The notes beneath the pieces were generated by a model, which did no database searches, was not told where the DNA came from, and saw only the letters and a program-made list of their open reading frames with translations. This document shows positions 6,448-26,726 of a stretch of 64,000 nucleotides of DNA, piece after piece. Where the stretch lies: positions 1 to 64,000 of the forward strand of contig NW_020311998.1 in assembly GCF_003144115.1 (NCBI RefSeq), given 5' to 3'. The position numbers were made by a program, and so were the translations under genes. Position 1 is the first letter of the stretch, and every line of letters starts with the position of its first letter. The stretch comes from Tilletiopsis washingtonensis (Eukaryota; Basidiomycota; Exobasidiomycetes; Entylomatales).

Positions 6448-9400
6448 CTACGCCTTGCCGGCCAGCTTGAACACGTCGATGTACCACTGCAGCTCGCCCT
6501 CGAGCGCAGCCTTTTGGTGGGCAGCCTGCCGGAAGCCTGCAGGGGTGCGTCAGCATCGCTGCAGCGCACGCACACGCGCGCCCACACACCGTGGCCCTCG
6601 CCCTCGAAGAGCGTATACGAGACGCGCCCGCCCTGCTTGCGGATCGCCTGCACGATCTCCTCGCTCTGCGCCGGCGGCACCACCTTGTCCTCGGCGCCCT
6701 GGAAGAAAATGACGGGCGCGCGGATGCGGTCGGCCATGTAGAGCGGCGAGCGGTCGTGGTAGACCTGCGGCACCTCCTCGGGCGTGCCGCCGAGCAGTGC
6801 TGTGGGGTAGCGCGACTCGAACTTGTGCGAGAGGCGGTCTGGCGGAAGAGACACGTGAGCGTATGGCAGGGAACAGCGGTCGCGCGACTCACAGAGCGCG
6901 GTCAGCTCGCTGATGCCGTACGACGAGCGTCCGGCATTGAAGCTGTCGGGATAGAGGCACAGCGCAGCGAGCACCGTGTAGCCTGCAGCGTGTGTGAGCG
7001 CGGCAGGAGAAGCACTGCGCCCGGTTGCACTCACCGCCCGAGCTGCCGCCAGCGATGGCAATCTTGCTGGGGTCGACGCGTGGCACGTTGGCCGGCGCGA
7101 CCACAGGCGTGTCCGCCTGCTTCGTGACGGCGATCTTCTGCATCCTGACAGGGTCCCAGCCGGTGGCCTCCTTTGGCGGCGGGCGGTCAAAGAGACGCTC
7201 AAACACATGCTCGACGACCGGCAGGCGCGGCAGCAGGTGCTGCACCACGTGTCAGCACAGGGCGTAGTCAACTCTCAACACTACTCACAGGGAACATGAC
7301 TTCGAGCTTGCCGCCGCGTCCCGCACCCTCGTAGCCCTCGGCGGCGCGCGTCGAGATGGCCAGATAGTCCATGACGCCCCAGCGGCGGAACGCCTCGATG
7401 GTCACGACGTCGAGGATCGAGTCGCGCGGAATGAGGCGCGTGCGCAGCGATGTCGCCTGGAAGTGCGCCGCCACCGTCGTCGGCACACGCGAGCCGGGCA
7501 GCGTCGTCTTGGGCGCCGCGCGCAGGCGCGCGCGGCGCGCGTGCACCCACGGAATCGCGAAGCCCTTGACGGTCGTCAGCTGGATGCCGATGTCCGGGAT
7601 GCTCGTGACGGTCTCTGCGCCGAGGGAGGATGAGTGAAGGCGCACCTAGCCATCACGCCGCACCGCACCTTGCTGCACTTGGTTCAGGTGGCGCCAGAGC
7701 CAGAGCACGCCGGCGATGGCGATGCCGAGGAGCGGCATAAAGTCGACGGCGCCCTGTGGAGCGATTCAGCGAAGGGACACGGACCACAGTCTCAGCAGCA
7801 CTCACATATCTGTACTGCTGCACGCCGGCAATGAGGCCGCTGAAGAGCACAGCTGTGGCACAGTCAACGGCGCCGAGCGACCAGCCGGCGTGCTCGTTGA
7901 GCAGCGTCAGCTCGATGGTGCCGTCAGGCTGGCGGCGCTCGCTCAGGAGTGACAGCTGCGCCCTGCCGGCCTCGCTCGACGAGCGCGAGGCACGCGCAGC
8001 ACTGGAAGCGACACTGGCTGAGGGCCCGCCGGCGCCAGCGTCAGACGCGAGCCAGTCGGCACAGGCGGCGCAGTCGCGCACGTCTACGACGCCCCAGTTC
8101 TTGTTGAGACGCTCCCTGTCGGATCAGATGCGTCAGCTGCGAGAGCGTGCCTGCGTGGCCGCAATCCTCACATGTACTTGCGGCCGTCTGTGGAGGGAAC
8201 CGTCAGCAGGCATGGCTGATCGTGCCGCAATTGTACTCACATCCGGTGCTGCCGCCGTAGTTGACATTGCAGACTGACAGCGCATTGTGAGCTGGTGCTG
8301 CCGCGTTGCATGCCACGACACGCACCTAGGAAGCCGCGCGTCGTCCAGAACTGCACGCCGAGATTGAGGCCCGCGTCGGCGGCCGACGTCGGACCGCCAT
8401 GCGCCAGGATGATGGCCGGCGGCGCCGCCCCCGTGGGCGCGGCGTAGCACGGGTTGAGCGGCGGATACACGATGGCGTGGGCGGTGCTCTTGCTGCCGTC
8501 GGGCAGCGTCGTGGGGAACTCGACGGTCTGCGCCTGGCTGAGATAGTCGCGCGGCACGGTGCCGTTCTGCACGACGTCGCTGCTGCGCTTGAGCACCTGC
8601 CACTTGGGCGCCGCGCCCTTCTTGGCGCCCGACACGTCCATCAGCACGAGCGCCGACGGCTCGTCGAAGCGCGTGCCAACAAAGACGACACGGTGCTCGT
8701 CAACGGCGCGCAGCTGCGAGATGACGCGGAACGGCGTCTCCATCGGCCGCAGCGTGCGTGTCGGCAGGTGCACGAGGGCGAGCGAGTGGATGCCGCGCGT
8801 GATCATCGAGCATGCCAGCCACTCGGCGTTGAGCGGCACAAAGAAGGAGCTAGCACAAAGTCAGCGAGGTCACAGACCGGCAGTGCCAAGAGCACTCACC
8901 CGTTGAGCTGCCAGGCGGGCTGCTGAAAGTCGCTCTGCGGCGGCGCCTTGAGCAGCGCGAGCTTGTCGCTGACGCGCAGGTTGTCCTCGTCCTCGGCGCG
9001 CACGCGCACCTCGTACAGGTTCGCGAAGCCCGTCTCGTCGTCGGTAAAGTACAGCGCCGCGTCCTCGTCGGGCTTCGTTGGCGCCCACACGGGCATCTGC
9101 GCCACCTCGCGCGCCGAGCCGGCGACGCAGCGCGCCTCGGACACCACCGGCGGGCGGCCGGCCTGGTGCAGGAAGCGCGCGACCCACAGCTGCGTGCCCC
9201 ACCACGGCATGCTCGGGTGGTCCCACGAGACCCACGCCACGAAGCGCCCGCACGGCGAGAAGCGCGGCGACACGCTAAAGTCGGGGCCCTTCACCAGCGT
9301 GTAGAGCGTGCCGTCGCGCGTGTCGAGGCAGGCAATGGTGTTGACGACGCCGGCGGGCGTGTCGACGGTGTGGTCCTCGTGCACGCACAGCACGAGCGGC

Positions 9401-9905
9401 AGCGACGGGTGCGCCGAGAAGTCCGCCAGGCGCGACGTCTTGCTGTCTGCAACGAGTATGTGCATCAGCGGTGACCTCGCTCTGGGCAGCAGCAGAGCTG
9501 ACCTTCGCGCAGGCGGCGCGGCTCGGCGCCCGGACGCGCCTCGAAGATGCCACACGTCTTGGCCTGCGTGAAGACGAAGTTCTCGCCGCCGGGCGCTGCG
9601 GCCACGGCACCGCCGCCGTACTCGTGTACGCCGCTCTGCGCCGAGTGCGCGCGTGTGAGGAGATCCGTGCCCTCGGGCGCCTTCTCACTCGCAGCGCCGG
9701 GGACAGGGAGGGAGACGAGGGCCGAGCGGCCCTGCTCGAACGGGCGGTTCTCGACGTAGGCGATGCGTGCCGGCGCCTTGCCGCGCGCCGGCAGCACAGT
9801 CACGTCGCCAAAGGAGATGGCGGCCTGGGTGAGCAGGTCGGCCGAGATGGGCGACGCCCAGAGGCCGTACGGCGCGACGGTGCGCGACGCCGCTGCCTGG
9901 GACAT
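6448..9905 (-). CDS. S9 prolyl-oligopeptidase-like serine peptidase with an inserted PIG-H domain
   Basis: Twelve exons (9905-9503, 9446-8900, 8849-8326, 8273-8241, 8187-8172, 8115-7806, 7753-7669, 7614-7289, 7239-7035, 6982-6893, 6838-6590, 6536-6448) join without a stop to 958 aa. Residues 1-480 form the propeller-like N-terminal part of S9 peptidases. The hydrolase domain follows with ILAHGGPTSA, NVNYGGSTGYGRKY, NKNWGVVDVRDC (W515), then the nucleophile elbow IAGGSSGGY (S814), GAEDKVVPP (D897) and EGEGHGF (H929); the triad looks complete. Between W515 and S814, where the family normally has roughly 35 residues, lie about 260 extra residues (536-798) matching PIG-H. The family cleaves short peptides, often N-terminal dipeptides or acyl-amino acids. 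An upstream in-frame Met at 10058 would add 51 aa with a presequence-like character (RPLLQRLARPSLHAPLPLAR); I preferred the nearer Met. A model with a separate PIG-H gene finds no start codon or stop in the right place. Confidence 0.87.
7090..8033 (-). other. PIG-H / GPI15 domain inside the S9 peptidase gene
   Basis: Residues 536-798 of the peptidase. Two hydrophobic segments (about 588-606, AVLFSGLIAGV; about 616-631, MPLLGIAIAGVLWLW) are followed by QETVTSIPDIGIQLTT, LIPRDSILDVV, a segment ending DYLAI, and LEVMFPHLLPRLPVVEHVF. From memory of human PIG-H, these align one by one with its two-helix hairpin and QETLLIIDSLGIQMTS, KVKDIVINEA, YYLCILLK and PVFQSAKPRLDCLIEIYR. PIG-H is a small subunit of the GPI-GlcNAc transferase that makes GlcNAc-PI on the cytosolic side of the ER. 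In PIG-H both ends face the cytosol, so a hairpin inserted in a cytosolic hydrolase domain is topologically possible. The first Met inside the segment (residue 617) lies after the first membrane helix. Confidence 0.88.
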
Positions 9906-10353: not shown

Positions 10354-11601
10354 CTAGCCGCTCAGGCCGGCCTTGGTCGACGCCGGCAGCGGCAGGCCGC
10401 CGGGCGCCGTGCCCGGTGCGCAGATGCCGCCGACGTCCTGCCGCTGCGCCGCCATCGACGGCCCGCCGCACGCGCCGTCGTCGTGGTGCGCCTCGCCCGG
10501 CTCGCCGAGGTCGATGATGACGGCCTCGCCCGCCTGCACGGCGCCCGCCTGCGCCTGGTCGAGCGGGTCGAAGAGCTGCACCTGCGGCGTCGCGCGTGCC
10601 ACGGCGCGGTCCAGCGCCGACATGCTCGCAAGGCGCTCCTCGGTGTCGACGGCGTACACGATGACCTGCCCGCCGCCGGCGCGGCGCCGGAAGATGCCCT
10701 GGTGCAGCGGGCGCGGCGCCGAGGCCGGGTCCGCGTGCGTCGCGTCCTGGCCGGGCACGACGCGCGTGTAGTCGAGCGTCTTGAGCAGCAGGTAGAACGC
10801 CGAGGCGCCGACGGAGCCCAGCAGTGGGCCTGCCCAGTAGATCCAGTGGTAGCCCTCAAAGTGGCCCGCGACGACGGATGGGCCGAAGGAGCGCGCGGGG
10901 TTGAGGCCGGAGCTGCAGCAGGAGTCAGCATGCGTCGACCAGACAGACGGCATAACGCACCCAGTGTACGGCACAGCGAGCAGGTGGCACGCAAAGACGG
11001 TCAGGCCGACGCCGACGGGCGCGAGCATTGTCGACGAGTGCTTCTCGGCGGCGAGCATGAGGCTGGTGCGGTTGTCAGCAGCAACTTACATGTCTCGTCG
11101 TGAGACTCACACGACAAAGACGAGCACGGCGGTGCACAGCGCCTCGATGAAGAGGCCCTGCACGATGGACACGCCGTCGCCGAGCGTCGTGGCGACGGAG
11201 ACGTGCGTCGGGCTGCTCAGCAGGCCCTCGACGAGCGCCGCACCGGCAATGCCGCCGGCAATCTGCGCCACCGTCAGCATCGCCGCACGCAGCGGCGACA
11301 CGCAGCCGCAGAGCAGCAGCGAGAGCGTGACGGCGGGCGAGAAGAGGCCGCCGGTGATGCGGTAGAACGACCAGATGGTGACGAGGATGCTGAGGCCGAA
11401 GGAGCACGCCACGAACATGACCGTCGAGTTGGTGTCGTCGCTGGCGTGCACCAGCGCCGTCTTGGCGCCGCCGAGGGCGAGGAAGAGAAAGGCCGTCGTG
11501 CCGACAAACTCGCCCACGCACGCCACGAGGTCCTGCGGCAGGTGCGAGCGCAGCGCGGCGGCGCGCTGCGGGCGCTTGAGGCTGTTGCTGATCGACGACA
11601 T
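10354..11601 (-). CDS. aquaporin (MIP family water channel)
   Basis: Three exons (11601-11111, 11062-10961, 10912-10354) give 383 aa. The MIP fold is clear: VGTTAFLFLALGG in helix 1, the first half-helix loop GGLFSPAVTLSLL, and the second loop SGLNPARSFGPSVV followed by YHWIYWAGPLLG. The second NPA is canonical and carries R after NPA with S rather than D behind it, as in orthodox water channels and unlike aquaglyceroporins. The first motif is SPA instead of NPA. A hydrophilic C-terminal tail of about 130 residues follows the last helix. It acts in the plasma or an internal membrane; which one cannot be told. Confidence 0.92.
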
Positions 11602-17914: not shown

Positions 17915-20900
17915 TTACGACTCGGCAATGTGCGAGATCCTGCGCAGAGCTGTCAGCGGGGTGCGCCGCCTGCGCAGAGCACGCAACTCACTGGGTCATC
18001 TGGTTGCCGTCGAGGCAGCGGATCTTGAGCGTCTTGACGTAGACGTTGGCGTCGGCGGTGTACGTGTACAGGCCGGCGCGCTGCTGGAACGCCAGCACCG
18101 TCTTGACGATGAGCGCGGTCGTGCGCGCCTTGTACACGTTGACGAGCGGCCGGATCGGCACGCCCGCGGGCAGCGGCGGCAGGTGGTCGAAGGCGTGCGG
18201 CTCGGCAGGCGTAAAGGCAAAGCTGTTGTCGCGGCTGAGCGCCTTGTGCGCGGGCACGGGCGCCGAGGGGCACGACGGGTCGACAAAGGAGTGCAGCAGG
18301 TCATTGACGGCGAGGTCGGAGATGAAGAGACCTGGGTCGAGCCGTCAGCAGCCGCACCTCCGCTCTTACACACACGACTCACCAAAGAACGGAACGCAGC
18401 CCTCACTGACCGTGCCCTTGGCCGTGTTGCCCGATGCGCCGTAGCTCGAGGCCGGCGCACCGCGCGTGCCGGCAAACGTGATGGGGTCGTCGATGCCCGC
18501 CTCAGGGATCATGTCGCGCATGGCGTTGCGCATGAGGCGGAAGTTGCGCAGCGGGCTCGTAAACGACTTGAGGTCGCGCAGCACGCGCATCTCCCACATG
18601 CCGACCTTGGCCCACGTGCGCCGCAGGCGCTCGACCCACGGCGACTGCAGGCCGAACACGATCTGCGCGAGCGACGCAAAGTTGGACTGCTGGTAGCATT
18701 TCTGCGCGCAGGGGTGTCAGCTTCTACCGATGATGCGCCGCACCTGGCACGACTCACAAAGGCCACGCGGATGAACTTGGCCACGACGGCCGCACGCTCG
18801 TCGACGTTCTGCGTGAGCACGATCTCGCTGGCGACCCAGTTGCACGCCAGGTTGAAGCGCGCGACGATGGCCTCGACGGCGCCCTCGCCGACGCGCTGGC
18901 CGCGCTGGCGCGCCTCGGTCTTGCGCCGCACGCGCGCCTGGTAGAAGCTCTCCCAGTCGAGCACCTCGCCGACGTTGGCCTTCCAGTCGTTCGACACGAG
19001 CTCCTCCCACGAGACGGCCTTGAAGAGCTCCGCCTCGATGAGGCACAGCTGGCGCGCGACCGTCTCGGACGTCGCGCCCAGCAGGAACGAGTGGTGCACG
19101 GGCGGCAGCTGGAACACGCCGCGCGGCACACCGAGTGTCGGCGTTTGCTGTGCTCGGGCCGTCGAGCGCCGCCCGCTTTGCGACACAACGCGCGTCGGCG
19201 AGCCGAGCGGCAGAGGAGCGCTGTCCTTGACAGCAGGCAGCTGTGACCGCTGGGCTGCAAGCGTGTCGCGCGTGCTCGATGCCGCGACGGCGTCGAGCAG
19301 GGCGTCGAGCTCCGTCTTCGAGTCGGACGATGCCGCGGCATTGAGCGAGTCCGGCGCCAGCGCTCGCACGGACGCGACAGAGTCGACCTCCGCATCGGAC
19401 ACGTCTGCATCCGCCGGGTGCTCGGCAGGCGGCGCGTCGCCGTCCTCGCGCGCCTTGCGTGCGCAGCTTTCCAGCCACAGCTTCTCGACGCGCAGCGCCT
19501 TCTGCCGCTGCTTGTCCTCGTCGATGACGCCCTCGAGGCGCCGCAGCGTCGCCTCAATGTCGCCAGCCTCCTCCTCGTCGCTGTCAAAGTCGTCGAGCTT
19601 GAAGCCCTTGACGAGCTCGTAGCCCACGAGCGCCTCGTCGGGATCAAACAGGTCGGTCGTCACCGTGCCGATCACCTGCGGGTGCAGGGCAGCGTCGGCG
19701 GCACGCTGCTGCTGCATGGCGATAATCGACGGCGCATAGCTGCCGTGCCCGAGCGAGCTGGCGTGACCGTGTGAGCTGAACGAGGCGACAGACCGTGCGT
19801 CGATCGGCCGGCCGTAGCCGCTGGCCAGCGTGTCGAAGCTCGAGCGCGCGGGCTCAGGCTCGAGATCGTGGACATGCTTGGCCATACGCAGGTCGCGCGC
19901 GCCAGGCAGGCGTCGCAAGGCTCTGCGCACAGCGCCGTCGTCCTCGTCGCTGGACAGATCTGTGATGTCGTCGATCTGCACGATGTTCGGCCGCGCGGAC
20001 ATCGACGAGGCTGAGCTCATCATGCTGAGGCGTCCGTCGTCAAAGGCGCGCGACATAATCGTCGGCTGCCGCTCCTCGGCCGAAAGCGGCCCCCGCTCCG
20101 GTGGGCCGGCAGTCGACTGGGAGCGCAGCGTCTGCGCGCTCGTCGTGTGGTGCAGCAGCTCGTTCTTGCTCGACAGCTCAAGCTGCTTGTGCTCTAGCTC
20201 GAGCGAGTGCAAGTTTGCGGCGTCAAGAGGTGCCTGGCTCGTGGCGCCCAACAGGCTCTCGTCTGCGATGTCGAGACCCTCGATGCCCAGCCCGGCCTCG
20301 TGCGCGGGAGATAGCTTGTCAGCCTCACCCTGAGAGAGATCCAGCGACGATGCCGGGGTGCTGCGCGCCGGCGCACTCGTCTCGGACTCGTGCAAGCCGG
20401 CGCTGTCGCTGCTCGTGTGGCCAGGCCGCGAGCCGTCCTCCGACGAGAGCAGCTCGCCAGAGTCGTCATCGTCGTCGGAGCGCAGGCCAAAAAAGTTGAT
20501 AAAGTTCTCGAGCCCGCCGCGGATGAAGAGCAGGTCGCCGCTGTCGTTGGCCTCAAACTCGAGACCCTCAAAGCCGACGGTATCGCGCACAGCCGGAAAG
20601 GCGCCCGAGTGCGCTCCCCGCGCGCCGAGCACGCGCTTGAAGCGCGATATCCGCCCGACAGTGTTGACAAAGACGCGCGAGATGGCACCTTGCGACGACG
20701 GCAGCGTTGGAGGCTGCTGCGGCGCGGGCGCAGGGCCCTGCGGCATCATCGGAGCCAGCGTGTGCCGGTGCGCGCTGTTGCCCGCCACAGTCGGCGAGAT
20801 CGGCGAGCCCAGCGCCGTCGCGGCTGCCATGTTCAGCTGCACGTTGCCGCGCTGGCCGGCGCCGCTGGGGCGTCCCGAGGCGGGCGACTGCCGCACGTCG

Positions 20901-23125
20901 TCGCTGCTGGCGTCGCTAAAGTCCAGATCGACGTGCTCCTGCGTGCCGGCAGAGCTGACACTGGTGTTCGCCGGACTGCCGGCGTCGTGGACGCTGCCGC
21001 TGCTGCTGCTCGCGGTGCGGTGGTGCTGCACGCTGTGAGACGACGGCCTCCGCCCGGCGTCGTGCATCAACAGCGCACTCATGCCCATGCTCTGGTACTG
21101 CGCCTTGAGCGAGCGCACCGTGTTCTTGAGGCTGCGCACGATGCTGGCGTCTGCTGGCCGCGCAGCCAGGCGCGGGTCCGCGCCGAGCGCATTGAGCCAG
21201 TCGGTGAGCTGCTGGCGCAGCTGGCGGTCGGGCAGGAAGTCGACCTCAAAGAAGTGCAGCAGCCAGTGCTTCAGCACCACGTAGGTGCGCACGCGCACGA
21301 TGCGCCGCCGGGCCTCCTCGCGCGGCTCGACGCGCTCGGTCATCGCCCAGCGGAAGCGCAGCGTGAGCAGCTGCAGCAGCGCCGACGGCGTGATGAAGGT
21401 GCGGTAGGTGTAGAAGAAGTCGGCGAGCAGGCGATTGTCGATCTCAGACGTGAGCTCAGCGACCATGAGCGTCGGCGTCGCCGCGATCAGGAACGCTCGG
21501 TCGGGCGGCGGAAAGACCGTCGACGGCGGAGGCGGCACCTTGCTCGTCCGGCTGGCGCTCCGCGGACGGGCGGTGTTCCTGTTCGGCGCGTCGGCGACGC
21601 GTGTGCTGCGTCGCTTGCCGTCGGGCTGGGGCGTGGAGCTAGGCCCTGTTGTAGGCACCTCTGCCGGCGCCGTGCGGCCACTGCGAGCGCACAGCACGAG
21701 CCCGCCCTCGCTGTTCTCGGGGTCACGGACGGCCCAGAGCGCGAACCGCGGGTCGTCGCCGCACGTGGCCGACGTCGTCGCATCCTGTGCCGACCGCTCG
21801 CTCGTGCTTTCCGTGGAGGGGCCCGAGGAGCCCGAACCGACGGACGGCGTCAGGCTCGAGCGGTTAGAGCTGCTCGCGGAGCCTTGTGCGTCGTTGCTGA
21901 GCGCGTAGTGCTGCAGCACATCGAAGATGAGCGTCTCGGGGTCGGAGGAGCGCGCAAAGGCGTGCTCGTCGTCGTCAAGCGGGCCCCAGGCACGAGATTT
22001 TCCGCCTGACGACAGTGCGCCGGGGCGCACATGCTCGTCGCTTGCCCGCGCTGTGGCGGCCGAGTCGGTGCTCTCGAAGCTCTGCGCCTCGCGCAGCACG
22101 CGCTCGCGGATGCTCGAGCTGAACGAGTCGCCTTCCTGCTGGCGTCGTCGCCGCGGCGAGCTGCCCTGGCTGTGCTGCGGCGACCGGCTCGACGGCGAGA
22201 AGGCCGGCATGTCGTCGAACAGCGGCTCGCCGAGCTCGAGCATGCGCGGGATGGGCGACCTGACAAACTCGTTGGGCGTCGCAGGCGCGCCATTGATGCC
22301 GAGGTGCTGCCCAAAGGGCGTGGCTGCCAGACGCGTCGACGGCATCGACGCGGCGCCCGAGTCCGAGCTGGCTCGCGAATGCGACGTGCCGCTGCGCGGA
22401 CTGCGCGCGTCCACGATGCCCTCGCGCAGACCGAGGATCGCACCCAGCACGTCGCCGCCCTGCAGCCGGCCGTCGCGGCGCGGCGGAGCGCGCAGCTCGA
22501 TGGGCGAGTCGCTGATGCCGCGCGAGACGGGCAGCAGCGGCGTGCGGCCGGGAGCGCGTGGCGCCTCTCGCCGGGCGTCGGCGTTGCCGCTCTCTGCAGC
22601 ATCCGGCGCAGACGCCTGCGAGCCAGCCTCGCGCTCCTCCTCCTCCACGCGCGTGCTGCGCATGTCTGGCGTGCGCGACGCGCCCGCGCCGGCAGCCAGC
22701 AGGTGCAGTGCGCGCAGCGTCGGGATGCTGCGGCTGCCCTTGAGGTTCTTGCGCGGCTTGGCGTCGGCCGCGTCGGCGCCCTCGGGCCCGCGCTGCGCCA
22801 GGCTGGCGAGACCGGCCGTCTCGGAGTGCGACTTGGGCATGGCCGCGGCGGGCGCGGGCGCGGCCGCCGGCGCGTCGCCGCGGTACTTGAAGCGGTAGAT
22901 GATGCGGCCGCCCTCGAGGCGCTTGGCGGTGATGCGGAACGGCGTGCCGGCGCCGAGGTCCTGCTCCTCGGCGGCATCATGAGCAGTCACGGCGCCATCA
23001 TGTGCCTCTGTGCTGCTCGCCGGCTCCTCGTAGGGCCGCAGGTGGATGCCGTGCTTGGCGGCGAGCAGCTTGACGGCGTTCCAGTTGGTCGTCTCGACGT
23101 CGGGCGCGGCAGACGGCGCCGACAT
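17915..23125 (-). CDS. Ras-type guanine nucleotide exchange factor, LTE1-like
   Basis: One giant exon of about 4.4 kb (23125 down to about 18760) is followed by three small ones, giving about 1,700 aa. The RasGEF_N domain lies near residues 540-670 (FLIAATPTLMVAELTSEID, FFYTYRTFITPSALLQLL). The catalytic RasGEF domain starts near residue 1335 (FLLGATSETVARQLCLIE, FKAVSWEELVSNDW, FNLACNWVASEIV) and continues over the later exons (WEMRVLRDLKSF, IRPLVNVYKARTTALIV) to the C terminus. Roughly 660 disordered, Ser/Asp-rich residues separate the two halves, and 530 precede them. This long-linker layout is that of LTE1, which acts in mitotic exit and polarity control, rather than of CDC25 or BUD5. GEF activity towards a particular Ras-like GTPase is not shown by the sequence. 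Confidence 0.87.
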
Positions 23126-23820
23126 GGCGGCGGCGGCGCGGGCGGGCGGCAGCGGGCTGGGCGTGGCTCAGACTGCGGTGCGCGGGCAGCACATGGTGGG
23201 CGTGGCGCGGCAGAGGGCGCGGGCGCGCGGAGGTCGCCAGCGGGCGGATGCAGGGCGAGGCGCAGCGGGTTCGTGAGGTATCGCAGGGCAGAGGCGGGAA
23301 TAGCAGAGCGGCGGGACGGACGGGAAGACGGACGGCGGATACGATGCGGGCGGCAGCGGTGCCGAGCTGGGAATGGGCCTACGAGACAGGAAGAGCGGGA
23401 TGAGTGACGATGGGAGTGGGAGCGAGAGCGGCGGAGCGCGATATGGCTCTTGGCCTCGGGGGCCGCACCGCGAACACGGCACGGCGCGCGTCAGGAGCAG
23501 CACCGCGTGGGCAGCACGCAGCAGCGCGGCGGGCCGTTGCCGCACACCGCACGCCGCACCCGCCGCCGCACAGCAGCGCCATGCCATGCGTCCCTCAGCA
23601 GCCCCCTTACTCACATCGCGCAGCATCCAGCATGGCCCTCGCAGCTGCGGATGGGCCAGATGTGGCCCGGCCCGGCATTGGGCTGGGCGCTGCACGTGCA
23701 GCGGGACGGCGTGGGAATCTCGAGGGCGCGCGCGTCTCGCGCGAGAGTTTTTGCCGCTGCCGAGCCGAGCCGCTCGCGCCTTGCTCCTCGCCTTCCCACA
23801 CCCACATCCCACGCTCCGCC
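23126..23820. promoter_or_regulatory. divergent intergenic region
   Basis: About 700 nt between the start codons of the Ras-GEF (-) and the zinc-binding protein (+). It must hold both promoters. No clear core element recognised. Confidence 0.45.
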
Positions 23821-24729: not shown

Positions 24730-26176
24730 TCATTCGCCGTCGAACGGCACCACCAGCCCGTCCCATGCGACGCGTATGTCTGGCACGCCGCGCTGCTGCG
24801 CCATCAGGCCGGCCATGGCGCCGTTGAGCTCGGCGTCCTGCTGCGCCACGAGTGTGGCCGCCGCCGGCTCGAGACACGGCAGGCCGTCCTTGCGGCCCTC
24901 GCTGGCGCGCTCGTCCCAGGCGCCCGCCCACCAGCGCGGCTCGCCGCCCTCGCCGCGCGAGTGGCGCTTGCCGTTCTTGCGCGGCGGCGACTTCTGTGCC
25001 TCGTCCTCTGTTGGGCCACGCGCTATCCGCCATGCTCGCAGGTCGCGCGTGAAGCGCTGCAGTCCGGCATCCGTGTGCTGGTGGTTAAGGCGGTGCGTGA
25101 GGTCCGTGAGCAGGGCCAACCGCGGCTGCTCTTCTGGCGCGCCCGGCAGCGAAAGCGCCATGGAGCAGGCCTGCGAGAGGGAGAAGTGCGAGGGATGCCG
25201 GTAGGGCGAGAGTGCGTCGAGGACGAGCAGCTGCGAGCCGCGCATAAGCGCCGCTGTGCTCGCCGGCGCGTGGTGCAGGTCGGAGAGGTAGCTGAGCGAG
25301 CCTATCCGGAAGCCGAGCGCCGGGAAGGGCTGCGCGCCGTCGAAGCCGTGCTGCACGGGCAGCGGCGTGACGAGCAGCTCCTTGCCGTCGCCGTCGCGCA
25401 GCGTGCCGCCGTCGAGCGCCTCGATGGCGAATGGCCGCTCGTCGATGATGTGGAAGCGCAGCGCCCCGACGCTGCCGCTGCCCGTGGCCTTGCCGCGGTC
25501 GACGAGGTAGGGGAACATGGCGGCGACGCCAGCGTAGCACGCCTGCGTGCAGTACACGTCGACCTGCTGCTGGATGGCGCCGCCCATCGTCCACGCGCGC
25601 AGCGAGTCGAGGCCGAGGATGGCGTCGGCGTGCGCATGCGTCAGCAGCAGCGCCGTGATGCGCCGCAGTCCGTTGGCGGCAAAGGCGGCGAGCGTGGCGG
25701 TGCCGTAGAACGTCGGGCCGCAGTCGATGAGGATGAGGCTGCGGCAAGGAAGGTTAGTGAGCCGCTTGTCAGCACAGCGTCTGCGGCAGCCGATCCACCC
25801 GCCCATTGCTGCTGCCAGCTGATCGGCTGCCGTGGCCAGCGCAAGCCACATCGCGCCCACCCTCTGCCACTCGTCCCGTGCTCTGCACGCACCTCTCCTC
25901 TGCCTCGCCCTTGCCCCTGCCCACGACCGCCACGCTGCAGCACCCTCTGCGGTTCTTGCTACCAGGCTGCATGGCGTCGCTGCACGTGGCACACGCCGGC
26001 GCCGGGCGTGCGCCACTGCCGGGCGCGGGCGGCAGCGTGCAGAGCGCCGTGGGCACCTGGCCCGACGTGCCCGTGCCGAGAAAGAGCAGGCGGCGCAGCC
26101 AGCGCGCCGGGTCGGAGAGCTCGGGCAAGGGCAAGGGCACCTCGGCATGTGCTGCGGCGGCAGAGGAGGCGGCCAT
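24730..26176 (-). CDS. metallo-beta-lactamase-fold hydrolase
   Basis: Two exons (26176-25944 and 25738-24730) give 413 aa. The N terminus has LLFLGTGTSGQVPT, then CATC and GSKNRRG, then LILIDCGPTFYGTA and the metal site LLTHAHADAILGLDSLR, VTPLPVQHG with a metal His, YLSDLHHAP and VLDAL. The order (GTGTS, Cys-x-x-Cys, KNRR, H-x-H-A-D) is that of PhnP-like MBL proteins, which hydrolyse phosphodiesters or related small molecules with Zn or Mn. The intron of 205 nt is long for this genome and falls exactly where homologues have about ten more residues, so a small extra exon may have been missed. The tail beyond 330 is charged and poorly conserved. Confidence 0.85.
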
Positions 26177-26726
26177 CGTGCGCGTTGGCCTGGCAGGGAG
26201 CAGGGAGTGAGGAGGCAAGAAGCAAGAAGGGCGCCGAGCAGCGCGGCGTGTGGAGGCGCGCAGCGGCAGCAGCACAGCTGACACCGCCGCACCTCGGCAG
26301 TCGGGACACAGCCGGCAGCGACGCCGGCCCACCTGGCCGCCCATCGTCCGCAGGAGTCGCACCCTGACCCGAGCAAGCCTTGAGCAAGCCTGATCGAGCG
26401 GCTGTGCTGTGCTGCGTTTCAGCTCTGACGCCTGTCAGAGGGCGAAGGAGCCCAGCGAGTAGCGCGCTTGTGCGGCGCGCGGTGAGGCAGCGCGCGTGTC
26501 GCGAGCGCCGGCGCCGCTAGCCTCCGACGCTGCCGTGCCCCGCTCAAGGGGCGCCGATGCGCTGCGACTTGCATCTCACAGCACCTCTATTGACCCCGGC
26601 TAGCGCCTCCGGAATCTCAGCCAGGGTCCTCACGCTGGATGTTGCCGTGGAAACGACTCCGCGCTCATATACCCTCGTGCTGCGTCGGAGGCTCGTGTGT
26701 GCGCCCCACCACGCCCCTCTCTCGCC
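26177..26726. promoter_or_regulatory. divergent promoter region with a TATA-like site
   Basis: 550 nt between the start codons of the metallo-beta-lactamase gene (-) and the secreted GH43 gene (+). A TATA-like CATATACC lies at 26666-26673, about 55 nt before the GH43 start. Confidence 0.5.

Follow-up and report, generated by a model that had tools for sequence, protein, structure and literature searches.

In yeast and in man PIG-H (GPI15; Pfam family PF10181), a subunit of the GPI-GlcNAc transferase (GPI-GnT), is a small protein on its own, and we know of no organism outside the fungi discussed here in which it is anything other than a protein of its own. In an AlphaFold3 model of the human GPI-GnT, PIGH lies partly in the membrane and partly in the cytoplasm, closing a ring with PIGQ and touching PIGA (PMC12182360). 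Deletion of GPI15 is lethal in yeast according to a further study (PMC6559964). Two kinds of S9 peptidase serve for comparison on the other side, namely the puromycin hydrolases, S9 aminopeptidases of solved structure (PDB 3azo, 3azp and 7c72), and the unfused S9 peptidases of Agaricomycotina (Trametes, Daedalea, Rhodofomes, Termitomyces), which have a total length of 652-684 aa.

Here we describe a gene of Tilletiopsis washingtonensis in which a single protein appears to combine two unrelated enzymes. The encoded PIG-H shares with PIG-H/GPI15 the Pfam core and, in the models of two relatives, the predicted hairpin and the strands before and after it, but it is an insert inside another enzyme and is tied at both ends. 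The peptidase part of the fused proteins has kept the catalytic triad of the puromycin hydrolases, whereas an extra 184-275 residues of PIG-H and linkers lie between a helix and the nucleophile strand, where the Agaricomycotina peptidases carry 7 residues. We recognised no description of such a fusion in full-text searches of open-access literature.

An S9 peptidase gene with a PIG-H insert

The window is a stretch of 64,000 nucleotides from T. washingtonensis (contig NW_020311998.1, positions 1 to 64,000), in which a sequence-only reading had proposed an S9 peptidase with a PIG-H subunit inserted in its catalytic domain. We adopted the exon model of that reading (9905..6448), which is based on predicted splicing. 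Eleven GT-AG introns of 49-56 bases each splice out to give a continuous frame of 958 aa that ends in a stop at 6450-6448. The proposed fusion holds in that the twelve exons join in frame and both Pfam families score above their cut-offs in the product. The parts of the gene are as follows.

6448..9905, minus strand: complete fusion gene of 12 exons, encoding 958 aa; includes the stop codon
8043..9905, minus strand: host S9 peptidase, N-terminal part (aa 1-532), exons 1-6; propeller and first half of the hydrolase domain
8096-8094, minus strand: codon of W515, in the N-terminal host part
7959..8042, minus strand: first linker (aa 533-560), with little conservation; boundaries judged visually from the alignment
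7159..7958, minus strand: PIG-H module (aa 561-775), exons 6-9; boundaries likewise judged visually from the alignment
7682..7865, minus strand: PIG-H hairpin of two hydrophobic helices (about aa 592-635), positioned through alignment to the model of the Ceraceosorus relative
7289..7609, minus strand: Pfam core of PIG-H, PF10181 (aa 642-748)
7081..7158, minus strand: second linker (aa 776-801)
6448..7080, minus strand: C-terminal part of the host S9 peptidase (aa 802-958), with the stop codon
7044-7042, minus strand: codon of S814, the nucleophile
6689-6687, minus strand: codon of D897, placed by alignment
6593-6591, minus strand: codon of H929, placed by alignment

Peptidase_S9 was matched in two stretches, the best at aa 802-953 (6e-39, above the curated cut-off), and PIG-H at aa 642-748 (1.1e-10, 41.6 bits against a curated cut-off of 25). 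The PIG-H module extends from a strand pair ahead of the hairpin to a helix behind the core, and the intron at 7754-7805 splits the coding sequence of the hairpin. GC3 amounts to 0.92-0.93 in the host parts and to 0.88 in the PIG-H part as well as in the second linker. The 28 codons of the first linker are off this pattern, with a GC2 of 0.89 and a GC3 of 0.75, and composition is silent there. The insert is a complete-looking PIG-H/GPI15.

The insert in other Ustilaginomycotina

A search with residues 550-800 against 5560 candidates in the size class of the fusion returned two proteins, from Ceraceosorus guamensis (984 aa) and Exobasidium rhododendri (930 aa), with a full-length identity to the window protein of 66% and 48%, respectively. 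A follow-up search with the alignment of these three proteins gave 1818 matches, and the counts below are taken from the best 120. Both Pfam domains are marked in a precomputed column for 30 of the 120 matches listed. Two further proteins, P0013 and P0035, bear the insert without this mark; the PIG-H match of P0013 reaches only 21.7 of the 25 bits required, and the sequence of P0035 ends within the PIG-H core. Among the matches listed, the insert is found at the same place in at least 32 other proteins, 30 of which have peptidase on both sides of it, while P0030 (759 aa) and P0035 (727 aa) are without the C-terminal peptidase part. Neither of these last two entered the tree, the count of Trp-Ser spacings or the identity averages, and the fragment P0003 was excluded from all counts. 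Nine of the 32 insert-bearing proteins come solely from the source 'lgn', taken to consist of assembled archive contigs, and P0030 comes from 'ena'. Chance can be excluded as the origin of this join, which 32 other proteins among the matches listed share.

We scanned 37 proteins against Pfam (32 with the insert and five unfused fungal ones), and 31 matched PIG-H at E ≤0.01. P0035 is the one miss among the insert-bearing proteins, which, together with the precomputed domain column, means that none of the five unfused proteins matches PIG-H.

The search for the same architecture in related species, called for by the sequence-only reading, found it in three of the five named classes of Ustilaginomycotina and in some twenty named species among the matches listed. 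The classes are Malasseziomycetes (Malassezia sympodialis, M. vespertilionis), Exobasidiomycetes (Ceraceosorus) and Ustilaginomycetes (Violaceomyces); the remaining insert-bearing genera belong to these classes by their accepted taxonomy. Trametes, Daedalea, Rhodofomes, Termitomyces and the chytrid Polychytrium are the named fungal sources of insert-free proteins within the 120, and no insert-free peptidase from a named member of Ustilaginomycotina was present among these 120 matches. Neither Tilletia nor a protein named Ustilago maydis occurs among the 120 matches listed of 1818. An entry marked as the window's own protein is likewise missing among the 120. Loss, another gene model or the limits of the search could account for these absences. 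Ustilago trichophora is represented by two differing fused proteins, P0017 and P0018 (964 and 957 aa), either a second copy or two strains.

Insertion site, conservation and origin

In the aligned insert-bearing proteins the insert begins behind the helix that follows the WG motif and ends just ahead of the strand leading to the nucleophile, a site at which five unfused fungal proteins have 5-7 residues. The sequence-only reading had placed the two S9 halves on either side of the insert on the strength of the wide gap between W515 and S814. This gap measures 299 residues, and the corresponding Trp-Ser spacing is 211-302 residues in all 31 fused proteins (window included) against 32-34 in the seven unfused proteins measured of 88 listed, which bears out the placement. 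The nucleophile Ser is kept in 31 of 31 fused proteins, again counting the window, and the Asp and His in all 30 full relatives as well as in the window, where D897 and H929 were assigned by alignment. Loss of the peptidase frame in relatives, an outcome that the same reading, in combination with a second intact PIG-H gene, had regarded as refuting its interpretation, was looked for, and all three catalytic residues are present in 30 of 30.

Averaged over all pairs of the 30 full relatives, identity amounts to 0.49 and 0.57 in the two host parts and to 0.34 in the insert, whose core reaches 0.50. A plain hydropathy scan detected at least one segment in all 30 relatives and at least two in 22, not all of them within the hairpin.

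We calculated a FastTree phylogeny from 626 columns of the host part alone, using 64 sequences (31 fused and 33 others); the outsiders were hand-picked from the 88 unfused proteins listed, and the root was one bacterial sequence. The 31 fused proteins form one clade with a support of 0.999, in which Malassezia is the earliest branch. Its sister group consists of four unfused Agaricomycotina proteins and one unnamed protein (0.976). A single fused clade that is sister to unfused Agaricomycotina peptidases makes a single old insertion the simplest account. Judged by these sequence comparisons, the architecture is old and common to three fungal classes, a result new to this analysis.

Predicted structures

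Structure predictions were made for two relatives, P0001 (Ceraceosorus, the nearest named relative) and P0031 (M. sympodialis, far more distant), in place of the window protein itself. The AlphaFold model of P0001, built on 63 aligned sequences, has a mean pLDDT of 86.6 and a pTM of 0.78, with the hydrolase around the insert mostly above 90 and values below 50 at 560-578, 690-711, 789-817 and both ends. The model of P0031 has a mean pLDDT of 90.3 and a pTM of 0.83, and its linkers are shorter and mostly above 50. The two-helix hairpin claimed for PIG-H from the DNA is predicted in both models, as helices 614-635 (with a break at 629) and 639-656 in P0001 and as helices 547-572 and 576-596 in P0031.

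In a Foldseek search with the P0001 model the top ranks went to the puromycin hydrolases 7c72 and 3azo/3azp, and puromycin hydrolases also led the sequence searches with the Ceraceosorus relative. For 7c72 and 3azo the TM-score over the target is 0.86-0.90 at an identity of 22-24%, with an rmsd of about 8 Å over 970-985 columns, gaps included. The flanks of the insert map to residues 533/534 of 7c72 and 496/500 of 3azo. Among solved structures, the PIG-H part alone as the query gave one unrelated weak match (E 0.14), and a profile of 11 inserts gave no match. The two models fit an intact S9 fold that closes around the insert, with PIG-H and its predicted hairpin carried on linkers. The sequence-only reading had pictured the two halves folding together around the hairpin; the models instead suggest that PIG-H may be a separate module on linkers.

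PIG-H, GPI-GnT subunits and S9 genes in the genome

We searched the assembly (18.7 Mb, 32 contigs) exon by exon with profiles. A second PIG-H gene, whose existence would have weakened the case for a functional fusion in the sequence-only reading, was not detected genome-wide: PF10181 gave one match at E up to 10, the fusion itself, in a search of exons that an intron-cut copy could escape. A genome search with the insert of P0001 found two stretches only, both in the fusion gene. A protein database search with the PIG-H part as a small protein returned only P0003, itself a piece of a fusion. PIG-A and PIG-Q/Gpi1 are clearly present in the genome, and PIG-P lies just over its cut-off (39.8 against 39.3 bits). 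PIG-C/GPI2 (PF06432) gave no match in a search that was equally silent in every control genome, and the gene may be cut by introns. Other S9 genes exist elsewhere in the genome, for example one on contig C4 that is 33% identical over 80 residues; none close to the peptidase of the fusion turned up in the genome searches made.

Proposed arrangement of the fused protein

The explanation we favour, with a probability of roughly 0.8, is a single fused polypeptide that goes back to one old insertion, with PIG-H serving the GPI-GnT and the peptidase on the cytosolic face of the ER. One polypeptide would carry a complete PIG-H/GPI15 on two linkers within a puromycin-hydrolase-type S9 peptidase, in the loop between the helix and the strand leading to the nucleophile serine, and the one insertion event would predate the split of Malasseziomycetes, Exobasidiomycetes and Ustilaginomycetes. 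The PIG-H hairpin would lie in the ER membrane with both PIG-H ends in the cytosol; since the insert is joined to the peptidase at both of these ends, the peptidase would sit on the cytosolic side of the ER membrane. It is probably held there, because PIG-H and its linkers lie between the helix and the nucleophile strand. In the hydrolase fold the start of the nucleophile strand is at the edge of the sheet away from the active site and the propeller, and an enzyme with an insertion at this point can therefore stay active. The PIG-H part would do its normal work in the GPI-GnT, and an active aminopeptidase-like enzyme would thereby be held where the first step of GPI synthesis occurs. Both PIG-H ends must be on the side of the peptidase, which makes the fusion a natural clamp on PIG-H topology.

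If the fused gene is the sole PIG-H gene, it must supply PIG-H, given that deletion of GPI15 is lethal in yeast. Both halves are likely to be functional. The conserved triad and the lack of insert-free peptidases from named Ustilaginomycotina among the matches listed speak for use of both halves and not for a link between them. An influence of the peptidase on GPI synthesis, or the reverse, is a tentative proposal. Equally speculative is a GPI-GnT of Ustilaginomycotina with a permanent peptidase arm, in which an active aminopeptidase would be present in stoichiometric amounts beside PIG-Q and PIG-A and the two would regulate each other, for instance by peptide supply or ER protein turnover being reported to GPI synthesis. 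A subunit that is essential in yeast has apparently resided within an unrelated enzyme from a time before three fungal classes diverged, and neither part has been lost; this makes it directly testable whether the GPI-GnT can bear a peptidase or be influenced by one.

Alternative explanations

Fusion of two neighbouring genes by a faulty gene model or assembly has next to no probability; the window's model is based solely on predicted splicing, but PIG-H sits within the peptidase and not adjacent to it, and the same order is found in some twenty named species of three classes among the matches listed. It is improbable, to a lesser degree, that the one gene yields a separate peptidase and a separate PIG-H through alternative splicing, a nested promoter or a post-translational cut. 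Splice pairs that skip PIG-H in frame do exist on paper, with acceptor-like sites scoring up to 4.7, where the real acceptors span -3.2 to 9.9. However, the best of the donor-like sites in exon 6 able to remove PIG-H scores 3.8, close to the lowest value among the real donors (3.4, with 5.8-13.5 for the remainder, each left out in turn), and the resulting introns would far exceed the 49-56 bases of the real ones. Joint skipping of exons 7 and 8 (85 + 326 = 411 bases) keeps the frame with real splice sites and would yield a peptidase without the hairpin half and the core. As for a start inside the gene, 25 of 30 relatives carry one Met or more in the stretch from the Trp motif to the hairpin end, in some of them ahead of the hairpin. 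Against this, the sole Met of the window between W515 and the hairpin end is M617, inside the hairpin, and five of the 30 relatives have none, so that the stretch offers no suitable Met as the start of a complete PIG-H in the window or in these five. A nested PIG-H gene with its own start was set aside on this Met and splice-site evidence. P0003, a frame of 274 aa, also argues against two products: it runs from the PIG-H core through to the end of the peptidase in one frame and starts, by eye, within a few residues of the position of the window's intron ahead of the PIG-H core.

The main rival is a neutral fusion that became locked in: in a single event PIG-H would have entered a tolerant loop on the surface of a cytosolic peptidase, its free-standing gene would have disappeared, and the two halves would work next to each other, linked only by joint synthesis. 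We give this an even chance; it is a narrower form of the favoured explanation, so the odds of the two overlap, and at present it is as good as control of one half by the other. Such a fusion would be hard to undo because PIG-H is essential, as the yeast deletion indicates. The linkers differ in length and sequence among relatives, parts of them fall below a pLDDT of 50 in the Ceraceosorus model (only 703-705 in the Malassezia model), and the insert evolves faster than its host, all of which fits a passive join; retention of the triad in all 31 fused proteins and the absence of named Ustilaginomycotina peptidases without the insert among the 120 matches listed weigh against it.

Annotation and neighbouring frames

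The domain pair is visible in databases, as an entry from Kalmanozyma carries the PIG-H domain in its name. Many fused proteins are annotated as dipeptidyl-peptidase V, alpha/beta-hydrolase or hypothetical protein, and a search based on names could for this reason take PIG-H as missing in these fungi.

Three further frames of the window, all on the minus strand, gave domain matches. The open frame adjoining the fusion (10357-11085) encodes a partial major intrinsic protein of the aquaporin family (PF00230, 6.8e-15), and a frame of 1552 aa at 18512-23167 contains RasGEF_N and RasGEF domains. The third, of 562 aa at 24730-26418, has a metallo-beta-lactamase superfamily domain (PF12706), and we take its product to be perhaps an enzyme of the N-acyl-PE phospholipase D type.
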